A program made the position numbers and the translations under genes. A DNA stretch of 64,000 nucleotides from Euhalothece natronophila Z-M001 (lineage in GTDB: Bacteria; Cyanobacteriota; Cyanobacteriia; Cyanobacteriales; Rubidibacteraceae), in contig NZ_CP042326.1 in the NCBI RefSeq assembly GCF_007904085.1, forward strand, positions 2,542,001-2,606,000, given 5' to 3'. The notes below the pieces were generated by a model. The model was not told the origin of the DNA. It worked only from the letters and a program-made list of their open reading frames with translations, and ran no database searches. Shown here piece by piece: positions 27,652-55,162 of the stretch (the stretch's first letter is position 1; every line of letters starts with the position of its first letter).

Positions 27652-28443
27652 TTGAAGACAGACAGCCTTTTTTACCGATTGTTCCAAATACGACCGCAAT
27701 TATTTTTTGAACTCCTTTCTGGTTCATCTCAAGCTGATTGCAATTATCAGTTTACCTCCGTAGAAGTTAAGCAATTAGCATTTCGCATTGACGGTATCTT
27801 TTTTCCTAGCAGTGGCAACAAAAAAGACCCATTTTATGTGGTAGAAGTGCAGTTTCAACCTGATGAGCAACTTTATTCTCGCATTTTTTCTGAACTTTTT
27901 CTATACATCAAACAATATCAGCCTGTGCATCCTTGGCGAGTAGTAGTGATTTATCCGACTCGCAGTGTAGAAAGAAATAGTGAGCCTCATTTCCAACCGT
28001 TGTTAAATTTGGAGCAAGTGAGGCGAATTTATCTTGATGAATTAGAGGAAGGGGAAAATAGTCCTTTGGGGGTGCGCTTAGTGAAATTAATTACTTCAAA
28101 AGAAACGGAAGTTTCACAACAAGCGCAAATGCTATTAGAGTCAGTTTCTAGAGAGGTAAACGAGACAAAACTTAGAAGTGATATCATAGACTTAATCGAG
28201 AGTATTATGGTTTATAAGTTTCCAAAAATGAGTCGGAAGGAGATTGCTGCCATGTTAGGGGTAGATGATTTAAAACAAACAAGATTTTATCAGGAAGTAT
28301 TTACGGAAGGGAAACAGGAAGGAAAACTAGAGGCAGTGTCAAGAATGCTAGACTCTGGTGTTGAGTTAAATACGATCGCGCAGTGGTTGGATTTACCTCT
28401 AGAGATGGTAAAAAAGGAGGCTAACAAGAAAAAAACATCTTAA
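27652..28443 (+). CDS. Rpn-family PD-(D/E)XK nuclease (DUF2887)
   Basis: A 263-residue protein starting at TTG. The nuclease core includes LAFRIDGIFFPS and FYVVEVQFQPDEQLYSRIF, giving the D...ExQ pattern of PD-(D/E)XK enzymes. Residues about 190-263 add the helical tail IAAMLGVDDLKQTRFYQEVF and EGKQEGKLEAVSRMLDSG, typical of Rpn/recombination-promoting nucleases. These proteins are widespread in cyanobacterial accessory DNA; roles in recombination or phage defence have been proposed. A near-identical second copy at 53322 is interrupted by a group II intron, and this intact copy defines the splice product. Confidence 0.88.
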   Translation: MKTDSLFYRLFQIRPQLFFELLSGSSQADCNYQFTSVEVKQLAFRIDGIFFPSSGNKKDPFYVVEVQFQPDEQLYSRIFSELFLYIKQYQPVHPWRVVVIYPTRSVERNSEPHFQPLLNLEQVRRIYLDELEEGENSPLGVRLVKLITSKETEVSQQAQMLLESVSREVNETKLRSDIIDLIESIMVYKFPKMSRKEIAAMLGVDDLKQTRFYQEVFTEGKQEGKLEAVSRMLDSGVELNTIAQWLDLPLEMVKKEANKKKTS

Positions 28444-53321: not shown

Positions 53322-55162
53322 TTGAAGACAGACAGCCTTTTTTACCACCTCTTCCAGATACGGCCACAATTATTTTTTGAACTTCTTTCTGACTCATCTC
53401 AAGCTGCTTGCAATTATCAGTTTACCTCGGTAGAAGTTAAGCAATTAGCGTTTCGCATTGACGGTATCTTTTTTCCTAGCAGTGGCAACAAAAAAGACCC
53501 ATTTTATGTGGTAGAAGTGCAGTTTCAACCTGATGAGCAACTTTATTCTCGCATTTTTTCTGAACTTTTTCTATATATCAAACAATATCAGCCTGTGCAT
53601 CCTTGGCGAGTGGTAGTGATTGATCCGACTCGCAGTGTAGAAAGAAATAGTGAGCCTCATTTCCAGCCGTTGTTAAATTTAGAGCAAGTGAGGCGAATTT
53701 ATCTTGATGAATTAGAGGAAGGGAAAAATAGTCCTTTGGGGGTGCGCTTAGTGAAATTAATTACTTCAAAAGAAACGGAAGTTTCACAACAAGCGCAAAG
53801 CCTATTAGAGTCAGTTTCTAGAGAGGTAGAGGAGACCAAACTTAGAAATGATATCATAGACCTAATCGAGAGTATTATGGTTTAGTGCGACCTGAACTGG
53901 TCGGTTAAAACGGTGTAACCTTTACACCACAGGGTTTTCCACCCCTGTCCTTCGTGGAAAGCTCTCCTCATTTGGAGAGTGGCGACGCTCTTAGTAAGTA
54001 ATGAACGGAGTGGAATGCACGCCCCTAACGCAACGGTTGCTGGCAGGGATTAACTGGTTTCCGTGCTAGAAGGAGAATTGGAAGGATGAACATAGTCTAA
54101 GCTGATGATTAAACTGCGTTATAGAACAAACAGCCAAATTATCCCTGACAGGCTGTGACCAAAAGGTAAGAAGGGGGTCTGTACGTTTAATCCTCGTATA
54201 GACGTGGAAACAAACCCCTTCCGCAGAAAAGTCAGCCATCCTAACCAATTCGTATGTTTAGCCGATACAACAGGGTAAGCCCTACTAGGTCTTCAAGAAG
54301 GTCGGTTCTTGGAGTAGGGAGGAGGTAACAAATCCACAATTCCTAGGAGGGTAAAAGATGAGGCAAAAAGCGAGTGCGTAATTCTGGGGTTTCCCCAGAA
54401 TGTAAGACGCACTCAAGACGCGAATGCCAATCTGTAATGGGTTGGATAGAGGTTGAAACATTACCTCTGAGCGAAAGCAATAGCCGACTTGCCTTGGGTC
54501 TTATACGAAAGAGAAGTTTACAAGGGTAACGAACCCAAGAAGAAGTTAGATGTCAAATCCAAGTTTGACAAATGGACTAAGGGGACAGATTACAGATTGG
54601 GGTCAGATCAACTGGCGTAAGGTCAAAAGGTTCTAAATACGAGCAAGTAGCCAAGATGCAAAAGCATAAATGTCCTATCTGTGGTGATAGCCTCTATAAC
54701 GGAGAAGAAATCGAAACCCACCACATAGTACCTGTGAAGGAAGGTGGCTCAGACGACGTTGAGAATCTAGTCCACTTGCACAAAGCGTGCCATAAACAGG
54801 TACACAGTACGAAAACCAAGACAAAGGCTGGAAGTAAGAGCCTCAGCGGTATGATTGGAAACAGTCACGTACCGTTCTTAGGGGAGGGGAGAGAGGCGAC
54901 TCTCGAACCTTACCCGATTAAGTTTCCACAGATGAGTCGGAAGGAGATTGCTGCCATGTTAGGGGTTGATGATTTAAAACAAACAAGATTTTATCAAGAA
55001 GTATTTACGGAAGGGAAACAGGAAGGAAAACTAGAAGGGAAACAGGAAGGAAAACTAGAGGCAGTATCAAGAATGCTAGACTCTGGTGTTGATTTAAATA
55101 CGATCGCGCAGTGGTTGGATTTACCTCTAGAGATGGTAAAAAAGAGCGATCAAACAAACTAG
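53322..55162 (+). CDS. Rpn-family nuclease gene, second copy, split by a group II intron (join 53322..53884, 54919..55162)
   Basis: Exon 1 (563 bases) and exon 2 (244 bases) join to an 807-base frame of 268 residues, collinear with the intact copy at 27652. At the junction the spliced product reads IMVY-KFPQMSRKE, where the intact gene has IMVYKFPKMSRKE, so the exon boundary is exact. Without splicing, translation stops at 53885 (TAG), leaving 187 residues with the nuclease core but no tail. Exon 2 carries an extra tandem EGKQEGKL unit. The start is TTG as in the other copy. Confidence 0.85.
54550..54636 (+). pseudogene. N-terminal remnant of the group II intron-encoded protein
   Basis: From ATG 54550 the frame reads MSNPSLTNGLRGQITDWGQI and NWRKVKRF before TAA. 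The WxxINWRKV segment is the standard opening of cyanobacterial intron-encoded reverse transcriptases. The whole reverse transcriptase and maturase (over 400 codons) that should follow is absent. Confidence 0.75.
54656..54918 (+). pseudogene. HNH endonuclease domain remnant of the intron-encoded protein
   Basis: The frame has KHKCPICGDSLYNGEEIETH, HIVPVKEGGSDDVENLVHLH and KACHKQVHS: the HNH core with CxxC zinc ligands, normally the C-terminal domain of group II intron proteins. It is in a different frame from the N-terminal stub. In unspliced RNA the frame runs on into exon 2, ending at 55162, which could make an HNH-Rpn tail fusion of 168 residues. Confidence 0.82.

Follow-up and report, generated by a model that had tools for sequence, protein, structure and literature searches.

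The window, by which we mean the whole stretch of 64,000 nt analysed from the genome of Euhalothece natronophila Z-M001 (3.5 Mb, 5 contigs), contains one uninterrupted Rpn nuclease gene (copy 1) and another (copy 2) into which a group II intron has inserted. We refer to the intron copy of the window as W, to its relatives in the same genome as A, B, C, and D, and to the copies in the congener G001 as G1x. The features of the locus are the following:

27652..28416, + strand: uninterrupted Rpn copy 1 (empty site)
53322..53884, + strand: exon 1, encoding the nuclease part of Rpn copy 2 (DUF2887; PF11103, E 1.1e-70; TIGR01784, E 4.6e-16)
53885..54918, + strand: group IIB intron W, 1034 nt, with GTGCG...CCCGAT ends
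54122..54127, + strand: EBS2 (TAGAAC), 5/6 pairs with IBS2 at 53872-53877 (GTATTA)
54188..54193, + strand: EBS1 (TAATCC), 5/6 pairs with IBS1 at 53879-53884 (GGTTTA)
54229, + strand: EBS3 (A), pairing with T54919, the first base of exon 2
54370..54419, + strand: 50-nt hairpin insert, which none of the other 10 aligned copies has; it is a repeat dispersed in the genus
54550..54636, + strand: RT stub, 28 codons plus stop (TAA)
54624..54629, + strand: deletion junction at a short direct repeat, which in copy B reads CAAAA
54629..54838, + strand: HNH domain remnant (PF01844, E 4.9e-12), out of frame with the stub
54656..55162, + strand: open frame leading from the HNH across D5-D6 to the Rpn tail, with no stop before exon 2
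54844..54877, + strand: domain V, first pair C.C
54881..54915, + strand: domain VI, with the branch-point A (54912) 7 nt from the 3' end
54919..55162, + strand: exon 2, the Rpn C-terminal tail, with an SD-like AAGGAG at 54941-54946 and an ATG at 54956-54958

That the interruption is a group II intron with domains V and VI, as a first-pass annotation had proposed from the letters alone, was borne out by a covariance match to RF00029 at 54842-54918, which match, at 47.7 bits, exceeded the gathering score of 40 (cmscan). Group II introns begin with GUGYG, end with AY, and bear in domain VI a bulged branch-point adenosine at a characteristic position; W, with its GTGCG...AT termini and A54912, conforms to that rule, and the ends GTGCG and GAT are those originally assigned. 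The exon junction, for its part, proved as exact as had been claimed: joining 53884 to 54919 produces one frame, identical to copy 1 at 245/263 positions and free of indels at the junction, the sole gap in that alignment—of 8 residues—lying further downstream, inside the tail repeat. In Rpn copies 1 and 3 the empty site reads ATGGTTTATAAG, uninterrupted, where copy 2 carries W; no base has been gained or lost at the junction relative to those copies, the codon phase is 2 on both sides of the intron, and both exon frames are open.

The consensus fold of D1-D3 comprises 153 pairs over 11 aligned copies, an alignment in which W itself is included, so that the pair counts lean towards W; the domain names other than V-VI follow what we take to be the usual group II layout. 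W keeps 152/153 of those pairs and the ten relatives keep 96-99%, while a two-sided change was found in some copy at 31/153. In domain V, W exhibits a private two-sided change from G-U to U-A along with a C-G to G-C change common to W and A. The first D5 pair, C.C in W, we counted against our main reading, despite the full-length copies G1d and G1f having the same; a C at the first D5 position was also considered as the sign of a dead ribozyme, which interpretation we rejected upon encountering the same C in those two copies. As judged from the sequence, the fold in W is as well kept as in the relatives, and the ribozyme RNA is apparently sound. These comparisons bear directly on the possibility that W is the fossil of a dead intron, which would no longer splice and would leave Rpn copy 2 broken, with copies 1 and 3 covering for it. 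The redundancy of a host gene present in three copies, the lost RT, the inserted hairpin, and the mismatches in the EBS would all agree with such a fossil; the private substitutions of W in D1-D3, however, number 15, within the range of 9-22 in the other ten copies, and that figure, together with the single pair lost and the exon frames still open, leads us to regard a dead intron as unlikely.

A DNA search uncovered in the same genome four related introns with widely separated 5' and 3' parts: A (2359 nt), B (2365 nt), C (2357 nt), and D (3547 nt, broken by other sequence). B and C encode intact RT-HNH proteins of 558 and 555 residues, respectively, both of which exceed the cut-off of TIGR04416 (the NCBIfam group II intron RT/maturase); the genome search for a full-length RT-bearing relative that had been proposed along with the first-pass annotation thus yielded two. 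The ORF of A contains an in-frame stop after 91 codons, and that of D retains the C-terminal part. Seven more copies were found in congener G001, one of which appeared in the searches without a 3' end and one without a 5' end. Excluding the hairpin, W is 86-87% identical to A-D over the 5' part; for the 3' part the figure is 90-93%.

Against A, B, and C the loss of the RT from W, likewise claimed at the outset, becomes evident. Measured on B, the deletion amounts to ~1380 nt between two CAAAA stretches, and a tblastn of the B protein against W recovered residues 1-27 and 486-558 only. The comparison shows that a deletion between short repeats within the ORF removed most of the RT-HNH coding region. 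The N-terminal RT stub is present as described, except that its length is 28 codons plus the stop and not 29, and the HNH domain is retained, as also described, in a frame that differs from that of the stub.

The guide sequences of W pair with their exon partners at 5/6 positions for EBS1-IBS1, 5/6 for EBS2-IBS2, and 1/1 for EBS3-IBS3, the one mismatch in each of the two longer guides being counted against our main reading. The EBS1 columns were chosen visually on copies B and C, with all the copies being scored afterwards, and the EBS2 offset was one of several scored, chosen as being common to most of the relatives. The EBS1-IBS1 pairing is 6/6 in 7/11 copies and 5/6 in the remaining 4/11, W included; at the EBS2 offset of W, W itself reaches 5/6 and copy A only 4/6; and the EBS3 column is Watson-Crick complementary to the exon-2 base +1 in all 10/10 copies with both ends known, among them W. 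The guides of W score 11/13 against its own exons versus 2-7 against nine other exons, and the own exon was the best fit for each one of the ten introns scored (G1b was left out, its guides being the same as those of G1a). Under thresholds set to the values of W itself (5/6, 5/6, and 1/1), 21 of 127,958 window positions on both strands fit, the true site included. Since the guides fit their own exons specifically, the insertion of W looks like a real guide-directed event, with a splice site that appears still readable.

That fit might also be expected if W were an active element mobilised in trans, in which circumstance the protein of B or C would have inserted W after the RT had been deleted; indeed, the ORF-less introns of T. 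elongatus are reported to have proliferated in this manner (PMC2882425). The fit is accounted for equally well, however, if a full-length parent inserted at the site and the deletion then occurred there, and W has but one copy in its own genome. Furthermore, no copy with the same deletion was detected in 5 congeners (with 40/43 candidates scored in G001) or among the matches listed for 243 genomes of the order (own and congeners included, two candidates scored per genome), at least 84 of which gave some match. We accordingly consider trans-mobilisation improbable, and the assertion of the first-pass annotation that W can spread only in trans is not upheld by these distributions and becomes a possibility rather than a finding. 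Within the genome, domain V matches number 16, of which 15 are above the cut-off, and RT matches 12; by coordinates, an RT match lies no more than 4 kb upstream from 10/16 domain V sites and is missing from that interval at 6/16, with W among those six. Another of the six (L106; G000:C1, 3118225) has a D1 match ~120 nt before D5, which probably makes it a further ORF-less intron, belonging to a different subfamily.

The HNH segment of W is open and free of indels. Its dN/dS ratio is 0.10-0.31 against eight relatives, compared to 0.10-0.32 in six pairs of relatives, and its private changes are 2 silent and 1 replacement, small counts with little power. The HNH shows no decay, and the dN/dS values and private counts fit continued selection and recent loss alike. 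Relatives of the segment, at up to 83-88% identity, occur in Okeania and Planktothricoides records.

A scan of contigs based on two HNH peptide patterns only gave 73 HNH loci, of which 48 had an RT upstream, 12 were too short, and 13 lacked the RT at a threshold of 150 covered residues. Those 13 consisted of five distant matches from clostridia that had no D5-D6 match, seven loci with D5-D6 but without a D1-D3 match, and one (L138, 1866 to ~3287, in the MAG of Calothrix sp. MO_192.B10) with the 5' end of the family, a partial D1-D3 match, and D5-D6, in which locus thumb/X and HNH share one open frame and nothing matches residues 1-327. Since L138 resembles W in having apparently lost the RT and kept the HNH, such a deletion appears to have happened at least twice. 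The open frame of L138 has an ATG after a short stretch.

Might W, then, be a homing intron that moves by means of its HNH endonuclease, in the manner of the group II introns that bear a LAGLIDADG? An open HNH without indels, its dN/dS values in the range of those between relatives, and the occurrence of a further, apparently RT-deleted, HNH-keeping intron in the Calothrix MAG would be in keeping with that notion. The HNH of W is nevertheless out of frame with the stub, its own stop is missing, and no Shine-Dalgarno site is visible in the sequence upstream from the ATG at 54656, while the constraint may wholly predate the deletion; we thus judge HNH-driven homing to be extremely unlikely. The retention of the HNH is probably incidental, since the segment adjoins D5, is out of frame with the stub, and has no visible Shine-Dalgarno at its ATG. 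The read-through of the HNH frame into the Rpn tail was also considered as a special adaptation, which idea was discarded: the variant that removes the stop (AGAGCCTCAGC before D5) is present in the full-length G1d and G1f as well, so that the meeting in frame with exon 2 becomes a one-in-three matter.

We consider it probable, in view of the foregoing, that W is an ORF-deleted cyanobacterial group IIB intron within one of three Rpn genes, and that it splices with the aid of a helper. The splicing of W is in itself likely: the pre-mRNA would be spliced at 53884/54919 through the usual two transesterifications, with A54912 as the branch point, and would thereby yield the full-length Rpn. The base of domain IV serves for maturase binding, and the maturase of the intact relative B or C would most likely assist by binding that base, which is retained in W. 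In this scheme the HNH segment would be a non-functional remnant and W would now be mainly a splicing element. Help in trans from B or C is probable; still, W differs from A-D at 13-14% of the 5' positions, so that their maturase might not recognise it.

Splicing in trans by the protein of a relative is on record for a cyanobacterium (PMC4424553; PMC2882425), and ORF-less introns with helper relatives are already known from Thermosynechococcus and Trichodesmium (PMC2882425, PMC4649490). The TeI3 introns of Thermosynechococcus elongatus are similar to W in that the RT ORF was lost by a ~1.5-kb deletion in domain IV that left remnants of both ends of the ORF, N- and C-terminal, with helper proteins in the genome; they differ in having 17 copies versus the one of W, which intron for its part keeps the HNH part and has a hairpin repeat inserted (PMC2882425). 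The ORF-less introns of Trichodesmium erythraeum are also cyanobacterial, are located in protein genes, and lack the ORF, this being absent in 10/17 introns documented to splice; there, splicing has been demonstrated, whereas in W it is predicted from sequence (PMC4649490). The LAGLIDADG-bearing introns combine, like W, a ribozyme with an endonuclease sequence in the absence of an RT, but their endonuclease is expressed from a separate gene, while the HNH of W is an out-of-frame remnant (PMC4424553). The same review describes bacterial ORF-less introns as rare and as occurring almost always alongside related introns (PMC4424553), and a survey counts 888/13,041 bacterial group II introns without an intron-encoded protein (PMC8919778). 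Having a deleted RT ORF, a conserved ribozyme, and an intact related protein in the same genome, W belongs in the ORF-less class; the spread of copies after the deletion that is seen in TeI3, which the class does not require, was not found for W in its own genome or in the 5 congeners. Among the titles listed for a few sets of terms in the open-licence literature, none concerns an intron in an Rpn gene or a group II intron with an HNH but without an RT.

If the preferred reading is correct, W would constitute a clean natural case of a self-mobile intron turned into a splicing-only intron that depends on the protein of a relative, and a change of this kind has been invoked to explain how spliceosomal introns arose. 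A single genome contains the empty sites, the relatives with an RT, and the deletion junction, so that the helper dependence is directly testable.

As to the host gene, the genome contains three DUF2887 copies with exon-1 DNA 95-96% identical among them, and in 14 control genomes DUF2887 was found in Synechococcus elongatus only. With TIGR01784, copy 1 scored 98.6 bits and exon 1 of copy 2 59.5 bits, the cut-off being 52.1. The unspliced RNA would encode a nuclease part of 187 residues, whose TAG stop is formed at the border by the TA of the exon and the G of the intron. W sits at the boundary between nuclease and tail, with the junction 37 nt before the ATG at 54956, and the arrangement of AAGGAG, 9 nt, and ATG (54941-54958) has the same letters in all three Rpn copies of the genome. 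This SD-preceded ATG resembles the internal antitoxin start of the E. coli Rpn genes. According to a preprint on those genes, the Rpn tails are separately translated antitoxins that block the full-length protein, and changes of K240, E241, and M244 at the ribosome-binding site and internal start abolish the separately made tail, RpnAS (PMC10327210). The likeness to these toxin-antitoxin genes lies in the Rpn nuclease, the variable tail, and the internal ribosome-binding site and start codon; here, by contrast, the gene is of the DUF2887 branch and interrupted by an intron, and the translation of the tail is predicted from sequence (PMC10327210).

The first-pass annotation had raised the idea of a splice-dependent switch in the Rpn gene, whereby the full-length nuclease would come from the spliced RNA only and a tail protein from both forms. 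The location of W at the nuclease-tail border, just ahead of a start codon with its AAGGAG, and the separately translated tails of E. coli (PMC10327210) would accord with that proposal, whose evidence is one of position; the fit of the guide sequences, however, already explains the site, nothing on DUF2887 proteins as toxin-antitoxin pairs turned up in the literature consulted, and a PADLOC scan of Rpn copy 1 found nothing, all of which renders a switch very unlikely. We would assign a similarly slight chance to the more specific idea that W acts as a gate between the Rpn nuclease and an intragenic antitoxin, such that the nuclease would need splicing and hence the maturase of another intron. 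Were that gate real, the tail protein from the ATG at 54956 could be made from spliced and unspliced RNA, and without the helper the tail plus a tail-less nuclease fragment would remain. Should the Rpn tail be an antitoxin, like those of E. coli, the output of a defence gene would be tied through the intron to another selfish element. Relative to copy 1, the tail of copy 2 contains at 55010-55057 an extra 8-residue repeat, EGKQEGKL, and tail repeats that vary are also reported in E. coli Rpn (PMC10327210). In a congener (G002:C1:67886-73273; L113, L115-L119), six Rpn-like stretches occur in tandem at a spacing of roughly 1 kb.

The hairpin at 54370-54419 folds as RNA at -25.6 kcal/mol, with a z of -5.45 for the 60-nt stretch around it, despite a repeat-pair search on the hairpin having returned no pair, and GCGA is found at both its borders. 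Following what we take to be the usual domain layout, we placed the hairpin in the D3 region, and its presence there was counted against our main reading. Near-identical stretches occur in G001 (100% identity across 53 nt), in G003 (98% across 54 nt), and also in G004, all of the same genus, and these matches, along with its absence from the other aligned copies, led us to reject the idea that the intron inherited the hairpin, which has the look of a small, dispersed palindromic element. The adjacent intron stretch at 54420-54478 matches Acinetobacter plasmids, with 28 Acinetobacter records and, among the matches listed, 91.5-93.2% identity over 59 nt.

With respect to the insertion neighbourhoods of the relatives, no match in codon phase between the flanks was found for D, G1b, G1d, and G1e, and Pfam gave nothing above the cut-off for B on either flank piece or for G1a on the downstream one. 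In B, G1a, and G1f the longest frames on the two flanks have the same codon phase; those of A and C disagree, and a reading of their flanks by eye gives matching phases of 0 and 2. The flank of A matches IS605 OrfB (E 5.9e-11), and that of C matches the same family below the threshold (E 0.062). The downstream flank of the full-length G1f (L102 542-2894, G001), in the same codon phase on both sides, matches HTH_3 (E 3.7e-5), and this part of the interrupted gene, read by eye, resembles a HigA-type antitoxin.
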